A stretch of 32,942 bases of DNA from Pseudomonadales bacterium. GTDB lineage: Bacteria; Pseudomonadota; Gammaproteobacteria; Pseudomonadales; Pseudohongiellaceae. Below, in pieces: positions 17,307 to 32,049 of this stretch. Position 1 is the first letter of the stretch, and each line of letters begins with the position of its first letter. The DNA is taken from assembly GCA_022360535.1 (NCBI GenBank), contig JAKSCP010000358.1:1-32942 (forward strand). The letters run 5' to 3'. A program made the translations under genes and the position numbers. Below the pieces are notes generated by a model. The model was given only the letters and a program-made list of their open reading frames with translations. It did no database searches and was not told the origin of the DNA.

Positions 17307-17843
17307 CTAGAGCAGGTGACTCTGATCGATAAATCCGTCGGCATTTGGCATCTCTATATTCGGAAGAGTCTCAGCGTTCAGGACTTCATCCTCACCAACG
17401 ATGCCGTTGAGATACAACACGTAAGCCACCACCTGATAGACCTCCTCATTAGAAAGCGACTTCGGGGCATCGGCTGGCATGGCGCGACGGACAAAGTCGA
17501 ATACCGTGCTGGCATAGGGCCAATAACTGCCGACGGTGCGCAGTGGTGTGCCTTCTGAATTCATATCGCCGCCGACGATGATGGTATTGCCAGAGACGCC
17601 TTCGCCGGTAAGAGCATGACAGGCAGCGCAACGTGCGTCATAAACTGCCTTGCCTTGACGAGCTGTGCCACTGCCTGCTGGAAAGCCATCCCCGTCTGGG
17701 CCAGCGATCAAATCGAATTCTGATAACTGGTCTTCTGTGACAGGAGTACCAAGTCCTACAGATTCCTGTGAGTTAACAGTCAGGTGCAGGTACGCAGTGC
17801 TGGCTATGGTCGCCATCATCAGATATTTCTTAAGCGTAGACAT
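17307..17843 (-). CDS. c-type cytochrome, sulfite dehydrogenase cytochrome subunit (SoxD/SorB-like)
   Basis: Signal-like N-terminus, CAACH heme motif (ARCAACHALTGEGV), distal Met region RRAMPADAPKSLSNEEVYQVVAYVLYLNG. Confidence 0.87.
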   Translation of the reverse strand: MSTLKKYLMMATIASTAYLHLTVNSQESVGLGTPVTEDQLSEFDLIAGPDGDGFPAGSGTARQGKAVYDARCAACHALTGEGVSGNTIIVGGDMNSEGTPLRTVGSYWPYASTVFDFVRRAMPADAPKSLSNEEVYQVVAYVLYLNGIVGEDEVLNAETLPNIEMPNADGFIDQSHLL

Positions 17844-19095
17844 TGCGCACCTCACCCGCGGAGTTAACCCCCCAACTTTGAATACAATGATTGTGGTAAG
17901 TGGTAATCAAACCTTTCTCCGCAATGATTGAGTCGCGGGTTGGCTGCACATTACCCAAGCTGTCCGTGGCTCGACTTTGTAAGACGGCATCGCCGCCATC
18001 CCATTCCCAGGGGATACTAAATCGGGTTAAGGACTTTTCGCTCTGATGGCTGTCGATCAGCGCATCCGCCCAGGTTCGGCCACCATCGGCACTCACTTCC
18101 ACCCGGCGAATGCTGCCAGAACCTGACCAGGCAATGCCGGTAACGCGATAGATGCCACGCTGATTTAACGACATTTGTCCGGAAGGAGATGTGATTAGCG
18201 ACTTGGTTCCCATTGGAAAGGTGAATTTCAGGCTGCTGCGGTCAGGCAAGGTATCGGTGTACTTGCTGGTTTCATCGCGGAAGTGAGGTGATTCATTAGT
18301 TAGCTTGAGTTGGGTTAGCCATTTCACGCTGGTGTTGCCTTCCCAACCGGGATTGAACAAGCGCATTGGATAACCTTGTCCTGGCATCACCGGCTCACCG
18401 TTCTGGAACAGAGCCACCATGGAGTCATCCATGGCTTTTCCGATTGGTACAGAACGGCCCATGCTGGCGGCGTCGGCGCCAACAGCTGCAACCCAATTTG
18501 CCTCTGGCAGCACACCTGCCTCATCCAGCAGGGTAGACAATGGAATGCCGGTCCACTCAGCGCAAGACACTAATCCATGCAGGCTCTGAGCGGTGCCATT
18601 AGGATCAGGATCGCGTTGCCTCAGTACCGCACCGCTGTTACCGGAACACTCCAGGAAATAAATCTTGCTCACCATGGGGTAGCGCAACAGGTCTTCATAA
18701 CTGAATACCAAAGGTTGGCGGACCAGTCCGTTGATGACCAATTTGTGTTGTGCGGGATCGATATCAGGAATGCCGGCATGGTGACGTTCGAAATGCAGTG
18801 CATTGGGTGTGATCGTTCCCTGTAGGTGCTGCAAGGGTGATCGGGATGCGCCACCGCCGGGATAAATGGGATTGGGATTGCCAGCCATGCGCATCATGTT
18901 TTCGGCATGGGGTGAGCGGCTGCCATAGGCGCTGGCGTTCGCACCTGGTGCCTTCGACCAGTCGGGAATCTGCAGGTCCTGTCCCAGAACTGTGTTGGCA
19001 ACAGCCATGCCGGCACCACCCAGGCCAAGACCCAGCAGATGGCGCCGATTGATTAGGCCGTTTCCAGCAACTTTTTCTAATTCTTGTTTCTTCAT
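17830..19095 (-). CDS. soxC: Sulfite dehydrogenase, molybdopterin oxidoreductase subunit (SoxC/SorA-like)
   Basis: Twin-Arg-like INRRHLLGLGLGGAGM; HHAGIPDIDPAQHKLVINGLV, YFLECSGNSGA (Moco Cys), GYPMRLFNPGWEGNTSVKWLTQLKL, RVEVSADGGRTW, Mo-co dimerisation-like C-terminus. Confidence 0.92.
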   Translation of the reverse strand: MKKQELEKVAGNGLINRRHLLGLGLGGAGMAVANTVLGQDLQIPDWSKAPGANASAYGSRSPHAENMMRMAGNPNPIYPGGGASRSPLQHLQGTITPNALHFERHHAGIPDIDPAQHKLVINGLVRQPLVFSYEDLLRYPMVSKIYFLECSGNSGAVLRQRDPDPNGTAQSLHGLVSCAEWTGIPLSTLLDEAGVLPEANWVAAVGADAASMGRSVPIGKAMDDSMVALFQNGEPVMPGQGYPMRLFNPGWEGNTSVKWLTQLKLTNESPHFRDETSKYTDTLPDRSSLKFTFPMGTKSLITSPSGQMSLNQRGIYRVTGIAWSGSGSIRRVEVSADGGRTWADALIDSHQSEKSLTRFSIPWEWDGGDAVLQSRATDSLGNVQPTRDSIIAEKGLITTYHNHCIQSWGVNSAGEVRNVYA

Positions 19096-19113
19096 GGCTG
19101 CTACTGAATACCT

Positions 19114-20673
19114 CTAATTGAGTGCAACGAAGCGCTTGGCTTCCTGTACTGATGGCATGGAATCATCACTCCAGATCATCAGCAATTGCTCATACTTCAG
19201 ATCTGCTTGTTCCTCGTCACCCAAAGCTGCGTAGGCACGAGCTGCACCCAGCAAAGAAAGTGGGCGGTTAGGCAGACGCAGCAGAGAAGTTTCAAACAAC
19301 TCAACCGCTTCTGCAGAGTTGCCAAGCTCAAGATGAATCTCGCCAGCGAATTCGTGAATTGGCTTCAGCGGTGTGGCGGCACCGTTAGGCAGACGACCAG
19401 CTTCCTTTCTTGCAATAGCGTCTTCTAATAAAGTCGCAGCTTCTTCAGCCGCAGCCATGCCATTGCGTTTCACTTTAGCCAGGGCTGAGACTTGAGCAAA
19501 CATGATTTGCAGGTTGGCATTATTGGGGCTGTCTGAGGCGAGTTGTCCCAGACGTTCGGCAACGCGATCTGCCAAATCCAGTTCGCCCAGATTTGCCGCG
19601 CTCATTCCCAGTGCCAGCAATTCATCGCCAGTGAGATCATTGTTGAGTTCGGTAAGCTGCCAATCACGAGTCTCGATAGTGTGGCGAGCTTTCATGATCT
19701 TAACCGTGTTGGTGGAGCGAGTGTCGCCCGGGTTTTCGGAAAGTGTTTCCTCGGCGCGTGCAATCCACAGCTTGGAACGTTCCAGATCTCCACGTTGCAG
19801 GTCGCCATACTGTCCCCAATCCGACGCGTGGTTCTGTTCTCCCACGGCGTCACCTGGCTTCCACAGTTCACGGGCGACCAGATAGGCAGAGTCATTCCAC
19901 TCAGCCACCATGTCCCACATACCGTGCTGTATGAAGATATGAGAAGGCATGTGGCGCGCATGGGAAACGGCCGGTGCGATGTCACGGTACTTCAGCGCTG
20001 CTTCCAGTGCGATAGGCGCATGTATCGGATCATCAAAGGCGTGAATCACATAGTGCGCTGCACCTGGGTGATTATCATTACGCTTGAACAAGTCCAGTGC
20101 CAGGGCGCCTGCTTTCATGTTCATGCGCTCACGCATATCACCGGATGCACCGGCAGCCGCCAGCGTTGATACCGTATAGAACGCGATGACTTCATCGTCA
20201 TTGGGGTATTTCTCATACACTTCTTCCATGGCCTTGTTCCAGGCGATGCGTCTTTCAGGCATGCCACCCGGAGTAAGAGCATAAGCTTCAGCAGCCTTCA
20301 AAAATCCTTTCTCTTTGTCATTGGGCGCTTTCGCCAGTCGTAGCTCTGATGTTGGTGCCAGGCGTTCCAGCGCAGCCGCTGGCCCATCACTCACGGGGCC
20401 AAAGAAAGGGTGCTGGTAGGTGAATACTTCGCCCCAATATGCCATGGCGAAATCAGGATCCAGTTCCTGCGCTCGGCGGAAAGCTGCTTGCGCCTGGGTA
20501 AAACCGAAGCTGTGCAGATAACCAACACCCAGCATGAACTGCTCCTGGGCTTCAGCATTTTGCGTGGAAGTTGGGAAATCATAGGTGCCAACCCGGGGAA
20601 TATCTGCCGCCTGGGCACTCAGGGAAATGACACAAAAAGCGATGATTGCAGAGAAAAATAAACGAAGAGACAT
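19114..20673 (-). CDS. Exported tetratricopeptide repeat protein
   Basis: Signal peptide; QFMLGVGYLHSFGFTQAQAAFRRAQELDPDFAMAYWGEVFTYQHPFF; C-terminal TPR-like repeats; same strand and close to soxC. Confidence 0.85.
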   Translation of the reverse strand: MSLRLFFSAIIAFCVISLSAQAADIPRVGTYDFPTSTQNAEAQEQFMLGVGYLHSFGFTQAQAAFRRAQELDPDFAMAYWGEVFTYQHPFFGPVSDGPAAALERLAPTSELRLAKAPNDKEKGFLKAAEAYALTPGGMPERRIAWNKAMEEVYEKYPNDDEVIAFYTVSTLAAAGASGDMRERMNMKAGALALDLFKRNDNHPGAAHYVIHAFDDPIHAPIALEAALKYRDIAPAVSHARHMPSHIFIQHGMWDMVAEWNDSAYLVARELWKPGDAVGEQNHASDWGQYGDLQRGDLERSKLWIARAEETLSENPGDTRSTNTVKIMKARHTIETRDWQLTELNNDLTGDELLALGMSAANLGELDLADRVAERLGQLASDSPNNANLQIMFAQVSALAKVKRNGMAAAEEAATLLEDAIARKEAGRLPNGAATPLKPIHEFAGEIHLELGNSAEAVELFETSLLRLPNRPLSLLGAARAYAALGDEEQADLKYEQLLMIWSDDSMPSVQEAKRFVALN

Positions 20674-24817: not shown

Positions 24818-25237
24818 CTACACGTCAATTTCATCTTGGGGTGTCGATGAAGAGTCTTCGATGCACGCTATGCCAAATCGTCGATACCCATCAAGGCAGA
24901 TCCAGCCTTTGCCAGCGTGGTCCAATCTTGCATTCTGCGGGACAACAACTTTTAGACACTCATCTCCTTCGTGCACATAGCCGGTCAGGCAGATCCAGGC
25001 ATTACCATCGATTCTATACCTCGCGTTTTCCGGCAGCAGGATTCGTTCACAACTGAATCCAACTCGTGCGTATCCCCAATTGCAGACCCAGTTACTTCCA
25101 GGAAGCACTAAAGAAGCATTTTCAGGAATTTTGTAGAAATCACCTTCAGGTACAAGGCCTTGAGCATTCCCTTTCGACCCAAGAATAAATGCTACGAGAA
25201 AAAGCAGAGCGAGTTTGAGGCTATGACAATTTCTCAC
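24818..25237 (-). CDS. Small exported protein with three Cys/Trp repeats of unknown function
   Basis: Signal peptide followed by three tandem units: NASLVLPGSNWVCNWGYARVGFSCERI / NARYRIDGNAWICLTGYVHEGDECLKV / NARLDHAGKGWICLDGYRRFGIACIED. Confidence 0.75.
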   Translation of the reverse strand: MRNCHSLKLALLFLVAFILGSKGNAQGLVPEGDFYKIPENASLVLPGSNWVCNWGYARVGFSCERILLPENARYRIDGNAWICLTGYVHEGDECLKVVVPQNARLDHAGKGWICLDGYRRFGIACIEDSSSTPQDEIDV

Positions 25238-25780
25238 TTATTTGCTCTCGTTCTCCTTCCAGAGCGGCACCATCGAATCCCAAATGCCGTCTCCTTTCTG
25301 CCGGTGGTAGATGGCAGCAATGATATGAGCGGCAATGAGGTTCATGCTGGTCCAGTAGGCAATTTCATGCAGCAGGATAATGGCGTCAAGTAAGGCGCCA
25401 CTTTTGGTTCCAGACCAATACAAGCTGCCGATAGTCAACCCCGTCATCGCAATCAACGCCAGACTTGCATACATTCCGAGATGCACTGCTTTCGCCAGAT
25501 TCTTCATCATCCTGGGAGTGTCGTCAGGTAAGACGGTAGGGCGAGTCTTGCGCATGTAGAAGAATCGGGCAAGCAGCAGAATGAGAAAAAAAGAGGCGTA
25601 GGCCATCTCAAATTGCAGCAAGGCAAAATCTTCGAGCTCTTCAACTTCGTCGATCTGCTTGTAAAGTGCAAAGATAAACACAGCGATAAATCCCCAGTGC
25701 AGAACTTTCGCCAAAGCGCTGTGAGAGTCGACCCTCGGCTGTGAGTCCTCTATCGTTGTTTCTGTAATTGAAGTCATCAT
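25238..25780 (-). CDS. Cytochrome b561/b-type membrane protein
   Basis: Four hydrophobic segments with His residues placed as in b561 (ALAKVLHWGFIAVFIF, AKAVHLGMYASLALIAMTGL, LLHEIAYWTSMNLIAAHIIAAIYH). Confidence 0.83.
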   Translation of the reverse strand: MMTSITETTIEDSQPRVDSHSALAKVLHWGFIAVFIFALYKQIDEVEELEDFALLQFEMAYASFFLILLLARFFYMRKTRPTVLPDDTPRMMKNLAKAVHLGMYASLALIAMTGLTIGSLYWSGTKSGALLDAIILLHEIAYWTSMNLIAAHIIAAIYHRQKGDGIWDSMVPLWKENESK

Positions 25781-25974: not shown

Positions 25975-27555
25975 TTATTGACTAGCTACAACGAATTCAA
26001 ATTCTCCGGATTGGGGGGAAACTTCATTTCTATAGCTTGTATTCCAGCGCACTACGTAAGTGCCTGGGGTTAGTTCTGATCCGACTGACATCATCAGATC
26101 ATCAGCACCCATGTTGTGCATTCCTGCTAGCGGGATAGAGGAGTCCGGGTTGTCTGCGTGATGCAGGGTGACCGAACTCCCGGAGACTTCGGGCAGACGG
26201 TCAAAATAGAGTCTTAGAAAACGGGGCGTCTGTTGCAGTTCTGTTCCTGCCGCAGGCTCGGAGCGAATTAGTTCTCCCAATCCCATGCCCACTGGCTGTG
26301 CGCGTTGCACGAATTGCGCAAAGGGGTCCACATCGGCTTCCTCATGCCACTCGTACTCGACACTGCTGGCGAGATCGCGTGCAGCCTGGATGCCGTGGGT
26401 CTTGGCCACTAAACCCAGAGCCATATCGGTGCCAGCAGATACTCCGGATGAAGTGAACATCTTGCCACTCTCCACCCAGCGTGCGTCCACAACCCAATCC
26501 ACTTCCTTGCTCTGCTGTTCGGACAGAAAGAAGAAGCGTTTATTCGCAGTCGCTCGGTGACCGTTTAATACACCAGCCTTGGCGAGGAGGGCAGAACCCG
26601 TGCAAACTGAAGTCGTAAACTCTGTGGTTTCATTAACGACTTCCAGGTAATCGAGAAAAGTTTGATTTTCCAGTTGCTGTCTGGAACCTGTGCCACCTGG
26701 CACCATGACAATATCCAACTGGGGAGCTGTTTCGAATGAATGGGTGGCTACGGTGGCAACACCCTGCGCTGACATCACTGGTCCAGCTTCTTCGGCGATC
26801 ATGACGATGTTGTAGTCCGGTACATAGGCCCACATTTCCAGCGGACCGTACACATCCAGAACTTCGAAACCTGGATATAGAATAATGCCCAGGGTTTTGC
26901 GTGAGTCCTTGGCTGAAACCAGTTCAATAGGTTGGTTAGTATCTGGCTGTGCGTTTGGGTCCAGTGCTGCAGCTATATAGGCGCTGGCGCTGCGATCACT
27001 TAACGCGCTGAATTCTTGGATATTGGAAAAGCCGTCGCCATCTGCATCGCCTTCAGCCTTGAACCATTCTCCAACGGCCAGGGCCTGTGAATAGTCGCCA
27101 TTCATGCCAGCGCCGAACGCTGCAACCATGGTGTCCATTTGCTGAAATGAAGTGCTGCCCAGCATGGCGTAGCCCAGGCCGACTTCGGCACTGGTTGACC
27201 AGGTTTCAAGAAGGGGCTTCAGATCACTCATAGCCACCTCAATGCCAGCGACATAAGCTGCATAAACTGCATCGTGAGATACGCCGCCACTATTGGAGAA
27301 ATCCAGACTTGCATCCGCCAGTACTGCGGAAACCAGTGCCAGTTCAATCGCGTCCGGGACGCCATTGCCCACTCCTTGCTCTTCGCCATTGAAGTCCAGG
27401 GTGGCTGGATCGAATTGGACTCCACGCAGCGCCTCATCGAAGTCCACCGCCAGGGAGTCCGCTGTTGCAACTCCAGGAACCAATAAGAGCGCCGTCAGGC
27501 ACAAGGCTGACAACAGGCGAATATGTTCTGTTAATTCGATTTTCAGGAAAGACAT
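25975..27555 (-). CDS. Exported multidomain protein: EF-hand-like segment + DJ-1/PfpI (isonitrile hydratase-like) domain + C-terminal CopC-like domain
   Basis: DADGDGFSNIQEF; KTLGIILYPGFEVLDVYGPLEMW ... VPGGTGSRQQLEN ... SVCTGSALLAKAGVLNGHRAT; C-terminal LIRSEPAAGTELQQTPRFLRLYFDRLPEVSGSSV...LTPGTYVVRWNT. Confidence 0.85.
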   Translation of the reverse strand: MSFLKIELTEHIRLLSALCLTALLLVPGVATADSLAVDFDEALRGVQFDPATLDFNGEEQGVGNGVPDAIELALVSAVLADASLDFSNSGGVSHDAVYAAYVAGIEVAMSDLKPLLETWSTSAEVGLGYAMLGSTSFQQMDTMVAAFGAGMNGDYSQALAVGEWFKAEGDADGDGFSNIQEFSALSDRSASAYIAAALDPNAQPDTNQPIELVSAKDSRKTLGIILYPGFEVLDVYGPLEMWAYVPDYNIVMIAEEAGPVMSAQGVATVATHSFETAPQLDIVMVPGGTGSRQQLENQTFLDYLEVVNETTEFTTSVCTGSALLAKAGVLNGHRATANKRFFFLSEQQSKEVDWVVDARWVESGKMFTSSGVSAGTDMALGLVAKTHGIQAARDLASSVEYEWHEEADVDPFAQFVQRAQPVGMGLGELIRSEPAAGTELQQTPRFLRLYFDRLPEVSGSSVTLHHADNPDSSIPLAGMHNMGADDLMMSVGSELTPGTYVVRWNTSYRNEVSPQSGEFEFVVASQ

Positions 27556-27760
27556 GGTGTTCCCCTAACTCAAGCATTTCTAAATCAATCTGACGGTTAC
27601 TCTAGTGAATATTGTAAGCAGACGTCGATGCGACACAGTGACGCAGAGAGAGAAAGTGAGTCGTTTAGAAATTCAGTTACTAACTTTCGTTGAAGGATGC
27701 GGAACAGCGGAAGCTATGCTTGCCGCATCAAGTTTGAGCGAGTGTTGCCGTTCAAAAAAA

Positions 27761-27794
27761 CAAGCCTCGCTAAAGAATGCTCTAGCGAGGCTTG
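27761..27794 (-). terminator. Intrinsic terminator CAAGCCTCGCTA-loop-TAGCGAGGCTTG
   Basis: 12-bp perfect stem, 10-nt loop; on the minus strand it is followed by T7 (A7 at 27754-27760 on plus). Confidence 0.9.
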
Positions 27795-27825
27795 CCAGGT
27801 GTTAAGTGCTTAGGTGTCGAGGTGC

Positions 27826-28416
27826 TTAAGTATCGAAAATAGCAACCAGGCAACCTTTGGAATCAGGAATATCCTGCATGTCGACTGTGCCTCCGGCTAG
27901 CACAGTGTTTAGTGCATCTTTGAGGTATTCATCGTGTGCTTCGTTACGTTGGGTTTCGTAACCAAGCTGGTCGTTGATTGGTCCGCGGAAGAGAACATCC
28001 TGTGTTTTCGGATCAATAATGAAGACTTCGGCTGTTCGTTCAACGCCGAGTGACTTGGCTAACAACTGTTCGCTGTCTTTCAGAATAGTAAAGTCGATGC
28101 CGAACTCCGTAGCCTCCCGATTGATGCGTTTCAAGTCATCCTGAATATTGGCATTGAACATGAGGAACTCGATGTTTTGACTCTGGTACATTTCCCGCAC
28201 TTCCCGGAACTGTGGCAACGCTATGCGAGCTATTGGGCAACCCACACCCTGCACATACATAACGATCAGTTCTCTATCCCGATACTGATCGAGGGAATGG
28301 GTGGTGCCGTGCTGATCCAGTAATTCGAAATCGGGTAGAGATTTCAGCCACTCGTCTGCAGCACTGCCAGCCGTACAGGCGATTAACGAGATACCTAACA
28401 AGACTTTTCTTAACAT
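27826..28416 (-). CDS. Exported redoxin-domain protein (thioredoxin fold, GCPIAR motif)
   Basis: Signal peptide; PDFELLDQHGTTHSLDQYRDRELIVMYVQGVGCPIAR...VFIIDPKTQDVLFRGPINDQ. Confidence 0.82.
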   Translation of the reverse strand: MLRKVLLGISLIACTAGSAADEWLKSLPDFELLDQHGTTHSLDQYRDRELIVMYVQGVGCPIARIALPQFREVREMYQSQNIEFLMFNANIQDDLKRINREATEFGIDFTILKDSEQLLAKSLGVERTAEVFIIDPKTQDVLFRGPINDQLGYETQRNEAHDEYLKDALNTVLAGGTVDMQDIPDSKGCLVAIFDT

Positions 28417-28431
28417 AATAATTCCTTTGAA

Positions 28432-30135
28432 TTACTCATCAACATAGTAGGTGAGATAACCAGTGAACATTTCTTCCCAGCTCTCCAGCCCCCACGTGAC
28501 CTCTTCTCTGGGGTCCGGGTTAAAGGGGTTGGATAATGAGTTATCAAACGCCCCCGCGACCTGCACGCTGGTGCCGGGTTCGATGGTGCGGGGCTCATTC
28601 AGCCAGTAGTGTGGTTGCCAGCCGTAGTTGTAGGCCGGGATACTGAAAACAACATCATGGTCGCCACCCGGGGGCTGCACCGTAAACTTCATATGTTTAC
28701 CGCGATAATTCATGCGCGCTCTAACGGCCAGTAATTTCACCCGTTGGTCGAACTTATAGCTTGCAGCTATTGGATGCTCCGGATCTTCAGGCGCGATAGT
28801 GAAACGCTCAGAAACGGCGCGGGTGAGAACTTCGTTTTCTGGCGCCTCATCCGCAAAATAGAGACCGATGCTGGTTGTCTCGCGAATTTCCACTCCATTG
28901 GTGACATAGTGGAATTGGAGTGCGAGCTTATGGCCAGCGGGAATTCGCACTCCAGAGTTTTCTGGAAATACCGTCGCTGGATTTTCACCGGGTATAAAGC
29001 TACCCAGGAAGCGTCGTTCGGGAGTGGTTTCGGTTTTTTCCGGCCCCCAGAAATCTTCATCCGGACCTATCACAAAGGTCATCAGGTGATGGAGTATTCT
29101 CTCGTCGCCAGGCGAATACTGAAAAGCACGAACCCATTTCTCTTCCTCAAAGGGCAGTTCGACTTCCAAATATTCATAGTCCAGGATGCCTACGGCTGGC
29201 ACGATATTCGTCGGTGCTTTGACGACAAAGTCTGGTTCGCCAAGTTGCCAGGCAAATTCTTTTTCCAAAGGAATTTCTTCCAGCGGATCGATAGCGCCTT
29301 CGCCCCGAGGCGCGCCCGCCGCCATCCAGTGAATCAGTTTTTGTCGCTCTTCCGCTGATATTTCATGAGCGTTAGGGGAATTACTCAATTCAGGATCAAC
29401 CTGCATGGGTGGCATGCGTTTGTTCAGTAGGACTTCTCTTACCATCGGCGACCAACCTAATAATGAAACATAGCCGTCGAAGGCAAAAGGGCCTGCGCCA
29501 CCCCAGCGGTGGCAGATAGCACAATTCTCTACAATGATTGGGGCAACTTCAGTGCTGTAGTCCGGCGGATTCTGCTGGTGCATGGCCAGATCAGCGTAGT
29601 CAATCTGACAGCCACTTACTTCCGTTGTAACTGTGTCCGACGCTTCGCCCTTCTCCACCGCAAGCAATCTGTTGGCGAGGTTTTCTTCGACGCCACCACG
29701 GTAGTACAGCGACATCCGCTCGGGATTAAATACCAGAATTTCTCCCGCCTGCGATAGTGACAGGCTCTCTGCTACCAGTAGCTCCTCATCACCCAGGGCA
29801 GGAAAGGGCATCTCCCACTGCTGTCTTTGCCCGCGAGATGCGCCGCCTACATCCAGGGCGAGAAATTCGATGTATTCGCCATGTTGTTGTTGCAACCTGG
29901 CTAACTCCAGAGAGGCTTCCCTGGCGGCTGGACAACCGGCATCGTAAGCCAGCATGACTACCGCTTCGCGATGTTGATAGCGACTCAGTTGATGAAATCT
30001 TCCTGTTTCATCCAGTAGGGCGAAGTCGCCCACCCGTTCTGTCGCAGCATGGCTAAGACCATAAGTAGCCGCCCAAGTAATAATAATTGCTGAAAGAGTT
30101 CGCAGGTTTTTAATGGTCAATGCTGACGGGATCAT
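28432..30135 (-). CDS. Redoxin - cytochrome c (CxxCH) - PHM-like (Cu type II ascorbate-dependent monooxygenase-like) fusion
   Basis: N-terminal GDFALLDETGRFHQLSRYQHREAVVMLAYDAGCPAAR; ENCAICHRWGGAGPFAFDGY...KRMPPMQ; ILHHLMTFVIG and GHKLALQFHYVTNG of PHM-like domains. Confidence 0.82.
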   Translation of the reverse strand: MIPSALTIKNLRTLSAIIITWAATYGLSHAATERVGDFALLDETGRFHQLSRYQHREAVVMLAYDAGCPAAREASLELARLQQQHGEYIEFLALDVGGASRGQRQQWEMPFPALGDEELLVAESLSLSQAGEILVFNPERMSLYYRGGVEENLANRLLAVEKGEASDTVTTEVSGCQIDYADLAMHQQNPPDYSTEVAPIIVENCAICHRWGGAGPFAFDGYVSLLGWSPMVREVLLNKRMPPMQVDPELSNSPNAHEISAEERQKLIHWMAAGAPRGEGAIDPLEEIPLEKEFAWQLGEPDFVVKAPTNIVPAVGILDYEYLEVELPFEEEKWVRAFQYSPGDERILHHLMTFVIGPDEDFWGPEKTETTPERRFLGSFIPGENPATVFPENSGVRIPAGHKLALQFHYVTNGVEIRETTSIGLYFADEAPENEVLTRAVSERFTIAPEDPEHPIAASYKFDQRVKLLAVRARMNYRGKHMKFTVQPPGGDHDVVFSIPAYNYGWQPHYWLNEPRTIEPGTSVQVAGAFDNSLSNPFNPDPREEVTWGLESWEEMFTGYLTYYVDE

Positions 30136-30149
30136 TCAATTATCTCCAA

Positions 30150-31274
30150 CTACTGAGCCATTGGGCTGGTACTGATGTGGGGATTCTCTACCTGTTCTCT
30201 GGTCCAGTTGCGATCTGGTACCGTCAGGCCTCCACGGGCTGGTCCGCCGGCGTTATAGATTCCGCCACGTAGCACATACAACAGGTAATCCGTTTCGTCG
30301 CTCAGGTTGGAAGTTTTTTCAGTGTAGTTAGCTACCGCGCGTTCAATCTCCAGCCAGCGGTCTTCCACTTCAGGGTGAGCCAATATGTCGCCGATGACGA
30401 CCTTCAGCAGTTCAAGGTTGTCGATAATGTAAGCTGCATCTGGATGCAAACTGTAGAAATTTGGTGCGATGACTGGATTTGTTGGAATGTCGCTGGGCAG
30501 TGAGACGAAACTGCCGTGCAGTCGGGTTATCTTATCGCCATACAAAGAGAGCATTGTTTGTATATCAGCATCCCGAGTCTCTTTGTCCGGCGCAAAAACC
30601 AATATTTCCAGCAGGGCTACTTTTAACCACTGAGACGCCCAGGTCAGCCCGCTCAGTTGTGGGAAGCCTGCCTTGTAGGCATAGGCATAAGGATGGTCAG
30701 ACAATAGTTCATCTGATTTAGGTCTGTCGGCGACCGAATGCTGCTCATCTGCGAGATAAGCTTGCACTGCTTCTGACACAGCGGCTTTCTTGTCTTCAAA
30801 CACGGGATTGAGGTAGATCTCAATCAACTGCTCTATAAATTGTCTGCCTCTCTGCAGAGTGTCTACAGCTACCGGTGGCAGGTTGCCAATATCGGCCAGG
30901 GCGGTGCGCACTTCTTCTGCATTGTGGTCCTCCCGAATCACGCCAAGTAAACCCGGTGTGGCCCGGCTTTCAAATACTCTATGGGGTCCAAGCATCGAGG
31001 AATGGTCACCGGCTGTGTGATAGTGAGAGCCTTTGGTTTCCTCCAATTCCAGCAATGTGTCCATAAGCACCCGTTGTCCAATGGTAGCAGTGGGAGAGCT
31101 ATTGGTAATGGTAATTTCCTCGTAAGCGCGAGCCTGCACCACATCATGTGCCAGCAGTAACTGCTGAAGTTCAGGATAATCTCTGGCAAGTACAGTGCTG
31201 TCGTTGGCCTGAATAGCTTGCGAACCTGTCGTGAGTAGCAAAAGCCCCAGCACTCTCCCGATAGGCAAGCGCAT
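30150..31274 (-). CDS. Exported protein of unknown function
   Basis: Start chosen at MRLPIGRVLGLLLLTTGSQAIQA (signal peptide-like); ORF track opens at 31463. Predicted helical, Asp/Glu/His-rich; same strand and 14 nt upstream of the redoxin-cyt c-PHM gene. Confidence 0.65.
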   Translation of the reverse strand: MRLPIGRVLGLLLLTTGSQAIQANDSTVLARDYPELQQLLLAHDVVQARAYEEITITNSSPTATIGQRVLMDTLLELEETKGSHYHTAGDHSSMLGPHRVFESRATPGLLGVIREDHNAEEVRTALADIGNLPPVAVDTLQRGRQFIEQLIEIYLNPVFEDKKAAVSEAVQAYLADEQHSVADRPKSDELLSDHPYAYAYKAGFPQLSGLTWASQWLKVALLEILVFAPDKETRDADIQTMLSLYGDKITRLHGSFVSLPSDIPTNPVIAPNFYSLHPDAAYIIDNLELLKVVIGDILAHPEVEDRWLEIERAVANYTEKTSNLSDETDYLLYVLRGGIYNAGGPARGGLTVPDRNWTREQVENPHISTSPMAQ

Positions 31275-31653
31275 GGTGAAAGACTCTAAATGAGTAGTGA
31301 AGTTAGTCATTTCGCTGGTTTTTTCCTTTCCAAATCTACTAATCAGACACGTTAATTTTCGGTAGCCGAGTATACGTGAGCAGGTTGGGGCGACAGCTGT
31401 GACAAAATGCCTCAGGGAATTAGTGGATTGCAGTTTTGTTGGCGGAAAACCCCAATGTATCAAGCTATTACATTAATCCGACAGATTCGCTGAATCGCCA
31501 AAATTACAACTTGCTACATTTGGTTCGCCAGTTTTCAGCGTTCACGAGGAATGGAGAATCAATGAAAACGTTAATAGCAATGCGGCAATTTGTCATCTTG
31601 TTCACCGGCTGCAGCGAACTTAGTCTGTTAAACAACAGTATTAATTGCCGTAG

Positions 31654-32049
31654 ATGAAGGAGAGAAGTGTGTTAGCGGGAGCTTGGAAATCAGCGATCAT
31701 TATTATTATTGGCGTACTGGCCTCCTGTGTAAGCAGTCCTGAGGAGTCGCCATTGATTCGAGCCGAGCCTGATGTCGGGTCAGTTTTAACACGAGCGCCG
31801 CGTACTCTTCGTTTGTATTACACCGCTCTGCCTGACGTTTCACAGAGCAGTTTGCGTCTTATCGGACCGGATGGCGACCTCGCCTTGCGAGGACTTCATA
31901 CCATGGCAGCCGACGATCTGATGATAGAGATACTGGATACGGTCACACCGGGCAGCTACACCGTGGTCTGGGAAACGGTAGTGGAAGGAAGTCCTGCTCA
32001 GCACGAGGGTAGCTATCAGTTCAGCTACGTCCCCGAGAGTTCCAGGTAG
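31654..32049 (+). CDS. CopC-like domain lipoprotein
   Basis: Lipobox VLASC; LIRAEPDVGSVLTRAPRTLRLYYTALPDVSQSSLRLI...VTPGSYTVVWETV...GSYQFSYV, close paralogue of the C-terminal domain of the 25975-27555 protein. Confidence 0.78.
   Translation: MKERSVLAGAWKSAIIIIIGVLASCVSSPEESPLIRAEPDVGSVLTRAPRTLRLYYTALPDVSQSSLRLIGPDGDLALRGLHTMAADDLMIEILDTVTPGSYTVVWETVVEGSPAQHEGSYQFSYVPESSR

Follow-up and report, generated by a model that had tools for sequence, protein, structure and literature searches.

A redoxin-cytochrome c-PHM-fold fusion with altered CuM ligands and its proposed lineage-restricted helical partner in Pseudohongiellaceae

A cluster of three minus-strand genes on a contig from the family Pseudohongiellaceae raises the question of whether a bacterial fusion protein with a PHM-like domain can be regarded as a copper monooxygenase, and whether the genes beside it form a conserved unit with it. 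The window, meaning the whole stretch of DNA that was analysed, is 32,942 nucleotides long and makes up the whole of contig C65, from a genome assembly of 3.8 Mb that is incomplete. A first-pass annotation had described the cluster as a protein without assignment (A), a fusion (B) and a stand-alone redoxin (C), closely spaced and followed by a strong terminator, and this layout was confirmed. The three open reading frames were found at the coordinates listed in Table 1, with gaps of 14 nt from A to B and 15 nt from B to C, and the terminator, previously placed at 27761-27794, is present with slightly wider limits. Shine-Dalgarno-like sequences precede B and C, an alternative start further upstream at 31310 is possible for A, and a signal-peptide-like segment is recognizable by eye at the start of all three proteins. 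The relatives used for comparison, whose loci and genomes are given as L and G numbers, are Pseudohongiella-type Pseudomonadales.

Table 1. Features of the A-B-C locus, in positions of the window.
Feature	Position	Strand	Remarks
Gene A (A1 family)	30150..31274	(-)	Exported, all-helical, fold without known match; first gene of conserved pair
HxHx4HxxM loop of A (H84, H86, H91, M94)	30993..31025	(-)	Candidate metal-binding site; low-confidence loop in model
Gene B	28432..30135	(-)	Redoxin-cytochrome c-PHM-fold fusion, 567 aa
B redoxin domain, residues 31-178	29602..30045	(-)	Cys68 and Cys176; profile match to 3u5r, 2ywi, 2cvb; Foldseek
B cytochrome c domain, residues 190-285	29281..29568	(-)	CxxCH 205-209; Met241 candidate axial ligand; invariant in 65 + 32 fusions
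B PHM-fold domain, residues 286-567	28432..29280	(-)	Foldseek 1phm/3mll, E 4e-14 to 8e-14
H349-H350, equivalents of PHM CuH ligands H107/H108	29086..29091	(-)	
H409, equivalent of PHM CuH ligand H172	28909..28911	(-)	
R474-M475-N476, replacing CuM ligands H242-x-H244	28708..28716	(-)	
Gene C	27826..28416	(-)	Stand-alone exported redoxin; Pfam AhpC-TSA 4e-16; recent neighbour, second copy of family-wide gene
Intrinsic terminator after C	27759..27796	(-)	17 bp stem, -27.4 kcal/mol, z = -5.8 vs shuffles

The redoxin domain, CxxCH heme site and PHM-like domain ascribed earlier to B are all present, the first with only a marginal Pfam match (AhpC-TSA) and the last recognized through AlphaFold and Foldseek. 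An AlphaFold2 model of the protein, built with 34 homologues, reached a pLDDT of 87.3 and a pTM of 0.84, and its N-terminal part was matched by Foldseek to 3u5r, 2cvb and ResA. This domain shares with SMc02350-like proteins (3u5r, 2ywi, 2cvb) a thioredoxin-type redoxin fold, the position of an N-terminal Cys and a C-terminal GC motif, but differs from them in being fused to a cytochrome c and a PHM fold. The peroxiredoxin motif PxxxT/SxxC is found neither in B, which has M61...D65..C68 with position 65 varying between D, H, A and S, nor in C, which has MYVQGVGC, and the CxxC active site of thioredoxin and ResA is replaced by CPAA in B and CPIA in C. The middle domain carries the CxxCH and downstream Met of class I cytochromes c, with a Pfam Cytochrom_C match below the cut-off. 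Cys68, Cys176, CxxCH and Met241 are invariant in 65 of the 65 members of the clade of B.

For the C-terminal part of the model, Foldseek retrieved structures of PHM and DBH at 15-18% identity (E about 4e-14, probability 1.00), and the description of B as PHM-like is right for the predicted fold. Sequence searches of the PDB did not find PHM when B or one relative alone was used as query, and did so only with a profile of intact relatives. Relatives with an intact motif exceed the Cu2_monoox_C cut-off of 23 (L162, 25.5 bits; L092, 33.4 bits), and this profile aligns to rat PHM with an E value of 0.0024, their HMH falling on HTH (H242-T243-H244), in which we take His242 and His244 to be the CuM ligands. 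Nothing on bacterial cytochrome c-PHM fusions was found in the open-access literature searched.

With PHM and dopamine beta-hydroxylase (Cu2_monooxygen, Cu2_monoox_C), B shares the two-lobed fold, the His-His and His positions of CuH and the Met of CuM, but it has Arg and Asn in place of both CuM histidines, is an exported bacterial protein fused to a redoxin and a cytochrome c, and itself has no match to either of these Pfam families. In PHM, O2 binds only at CuM, the CuH ligands are H107, H108 and H172, and activity disappears once a single CuH His is missing (PMC6123673). When the ligands were compared in 97 redoxin-cytochrome c-PHM fusions longer than 540 aa, 65 (the B clade) had R or K at 474, Met at 475 and N or S at 476, whereas the other 32, their sisters, had His at 474 and 476, with HMH in 32/32; position 476 alone separates the two groups at the thresholds used. 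Only M556 is kept from the CuM set of B. The CuH set is complete in the window protein and lost in some subclades, with HN at 349-350 in the L093-L100 type, HQ at 349-350 plus Q409 in L114-L116, and Q409 in L124 and L129, and M556 is replaced by Val or Ile in L117, L121, L122, L120, L126 and L130. In a tree built without the ligand columns, the trait corresponds to 2 changes of state against 27 expected for shuffled labels, and the tree is compatible with the CuM-ligand change having arisen once. Because the CuM His-x-His is replaced throughout the clade, with some members also lacking CuH ligands, the residues present make canonical PHM/DBM hydroxylation by B unlikely, and the copper monooxygenase-type activity once suggested for it finds no support. 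That B falls outside the canonical dicopper monooxygenases we consider highly probable. The CuH ligands and Met556 persist in most members, however, and may still allow some copper chemistry.

Of the three parts of B, the altered PHM domain is under the tightest constraint. In the comparison of the window with L086 it is 97% identical with a dN/dS of 0.024, compared with 0.050 for the redoxin part and 0.060 for the cytochrome part, values which come from one genome pair and, for the redoxin part, from a saturated dS. This lowest dN/dS points to strong purifying selection and indicates that the loss of CuM is not a matter of decay.

Protein A has no match in Pfam, NCBIfam, PHROG or PDB sequence searches. 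Its AlphaFold2 model is all-helical (pLDDT 77.7, pTM 0.80) with good confidence in the core, and Foldseek returned nothing significant for it (best E 0.7). Matches to A occur in 6 of 295 genomes of the order, all in the GTDB family of the window, and in a sample of the phylum only in the window's own genome; A is thus a lineage-restricted exported family, all-helical and without a PDB match. Its HxHx4HxxM loop is probably a metal-binding site, to judge from its residues. The loop histidines are constant among A1 proteins, with HYH always present, and M94 is Leu in the subclade with HN at 349-350 of B. A2 proteins are paralogs of A with about 36% identity, most of which have a His/Met-rich stretch at the place of the A1 loop; their genes neighbour intact cytochrome c-PHM, GMC oxidoreductase, gluconate-dehydrogenase-3 and cupin genes, or lie in a SorA-like/DUF5916/YdbH setting. 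A role of A in delivering copper to B alone was considered and rejected, as the loop persists where B has lost its copper ligands.

The linkage of the three genes was followed across 48 A1-type loci, defined as loci with a relative of A at 45% identity or more. B lies directly downstream of A in 43 of these, with gaps mostly of 3-102 nt; since the search was seeded with A, on loci many of which are MAG contigs and a few near-duplicates, this count tells how often B follows A and not how often A precedes each RMN-type gene. Genes of this type without an adjacent A do occur (19 rows of the RMN class, with A absent or only near, and 3 RMS rows). Among the 48 loci, those without B directly downstream of A are L090-L092, L128 and L132, and the HMH proteins next to A are the three of L090-L092, stand-alone cytochrome c-PHM proteins without a redoxin; none of the redoxin fusions adjoining A is of the HMH type. 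A and B are both retained in subclades also short of CuH ligands (HN; HQ plus Q409). Outside the window, gene C adjoins B in the four closest relatives (L086-L089) and at no other locus. Of 119 family genomes, 88 carry C-like genes, mostly as a single copy elsewhere in the genome; two copies are found in window-clade genomes (G000, G1028, G011, G002, G1026) and in certain genomes from the family's other genera. Conserved co-occurrence, on which the first-pass annotation had staked its three-gene unit, therefore holds for A and B and fails for C, otherwise a stand-alone gene. C was also considered as a lipoprotein and rejected, its lipobox-like Cys14 in the window not being kept in relatives. 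One A-B pair (L117) belongs to a cultured strain, LSUCC0112 (PMC6606908), and a typical Pseudohongiella-type A-B locus is found in a MAG labelled Klebsiella pneumoniae (L123), a label that is probably wrong.

Intact HMH redoxin-cytochrome c-PHM fusions (L137, L162, L213 and, outside the order, L167 and L168) share the domain order, Cys pair and heme site of B, but have the full set of CuM and CuH ligands, and their genes do not stand directly behind A1. Intact HMH fusions also occur in tandem pairs (L219, L220, L222, L224, L230, L231, L232, L234), suggesting heteromeric working pairs. Of 54 RMN-type genes whose fragments exceed 9 kb, 27 have an intact HxH cytochrome c-PHM gene within 10 kb, for which reason such proteins are plausible clients of A and B. 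None is present near the window locus, where only 1.7 kb of contig remain beyond A. About 20 cytochrome c-PHM-like copies are found in the window's own genome (22 matches including C6, C305, C176, C464, C538, C355 and C476), and family genomes generally hold several redoxin fusions each.

It had further been suggested, as an unproven idea, that a cytochrome b561 encoded at 25238-25780, 2 kb from the cluster, could feed the PHM-like domain. This gene matches PF01292, the prokaryotic b561 family, and not PF03188, which we take to be the ascorbate-linked eukaryotic one; together with the DJ-1/CopC and TPR genes it is near the cluster only in L086 among the relatives. As the b561 gene belongs to PF01292 and is not conserved with the A-B pair, the proposal is without support. 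The likeness to the eukaryotic cytochrome b561-ascorbate-PHM/DBH system is superficial: b561 and PHM-like genes are both present here, but with a b561 of the other family and a PHM-like domain lacking CuM. CopC-like proteins do lie nearby, as had been observed; CopC is a conserved neighbour only in L086-L089, where it is divergently placed.

The best explanation of these computational results, to which we assign a probability of about one half, is that A and B constitute a two-protein module, exported and conserved in Pseudohongiellaceae, a family of mostly marine bacteria, with B acting as a periplasmic thiol/heme redox protein and A as its partner. B would have abandoned hydroxylation of a substrate by the PHM/DBM mechanism; its Cys68/Cys176 pair would swap electrons with a partner, heme c would pass electrons on, and the PHM-fold lobe, holding at most one CuH-type copper, would be retained as a surface for docking or relay. 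A would be dedicated to B, probably binding metal through its His/Met loop, and the likeliest clients of the module would be the cytochrome c-PHM proteins with intact copper ligands that adjoin it in many relatives. That same proximity, often of 0.1-2 kb between RMN-type genes and a gene with HGH, HLH or HMH, also fits B being a pseudoenzyme that serves the intact enzymes as a non-catalytic subunit or chaperone, by dimerising with them or by maintaining their copper and disulfides, while A delivers metal. The numerous paralogs in the own genome and the occurrence of A paralogs beside intact cytochrome c-PHM genes agree with this idea; we nonetheless find it rather doubtful, as the sampled flanks of most window-clade loci hold no intact gene, and the A-B pair is retained even where few copper ligands are left in B.

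Were B a working PHM/DBM-type copper monooxygenase receiving electrons through its heme or through cytochrome b561, with the three genes as a metal/oxygen module, the PHM fold, the CuH ligands and Met556 of the window protein and the nearby b561 gene would all find a place. This is improbable, however, considering that O2 binds PHM only at the site whose histidines are replaced across the clade, that one missing CuH His, as in some subclades, suffices for inactivity (PMC6123673), and that the b561 gene is neither of the expected family nor conserved with the pair. A and B might instead rebuild a copper/oxygen site, either with ligands lent by A in trans or with Arg-Met-Asn supporting a new chemistry coupled to heme and thiols, which we regard as decidedly improbable and which, if true, would represent a new enzyme type on the PHM fold. 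The specific version in which the HxHx4HxxM loop supplies the missing CuM ligands, giving a composite dicopper enzyme, draws on the HYH motif of every A1 and on A linkage and CuM loss largely coinciding on the tree. It is very improbable given that the loop is kept next to intact HMH partners (L090-L092) as well as next to B proteins also short of CuH (L114-L116), and that R474 would bring a positive charge into the site. Neutral erosion of a decaying paralog could draw on the size of the family and on the further ligands lost in some subclades, yet it is scarcely credible and already contradicted by the constraint on the PHM domain, a specific R/K-M-N/S state being kept in 65 genes and linkage to A being kept across the family.

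The altered ligands of B have consequences for annotation, in that bacterial fusions of this kind should not be labelled as copper monooxygenases. A PHM-fold clade has given up its oxygen-activating copper site, yet its fold is under strong selection, joined to a redoxin and a heme and accompanied by a lineage-specific partner with an unseen fold, and the ligand states of the sister clades make the role of the CuM-less fold testable by comparison. Several further genes of the window may be mentioned. By eye, both the DJ-1/PfpI-CopC fusion at 25975-27555 (-) and the small CopC protein at 31654-32049 (+) seem to be without the N-terminal His that would be expected in a CopC copper site. A small exported Cys-rich protein encoded at 24818-25237 (-), adjoining the b561 gene, matches an MSP1 EGF domain model (E 7e-7). 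At 17307-20673 (-) lies a trio comprising a TPR protein, a SorA-like molybdopterin oxidoreductase and a cytochrome c, and a trio of this type, followed by a DUF5916 gene, precedes an A2 paralog in several relatives (L059, L062, L068, L075).
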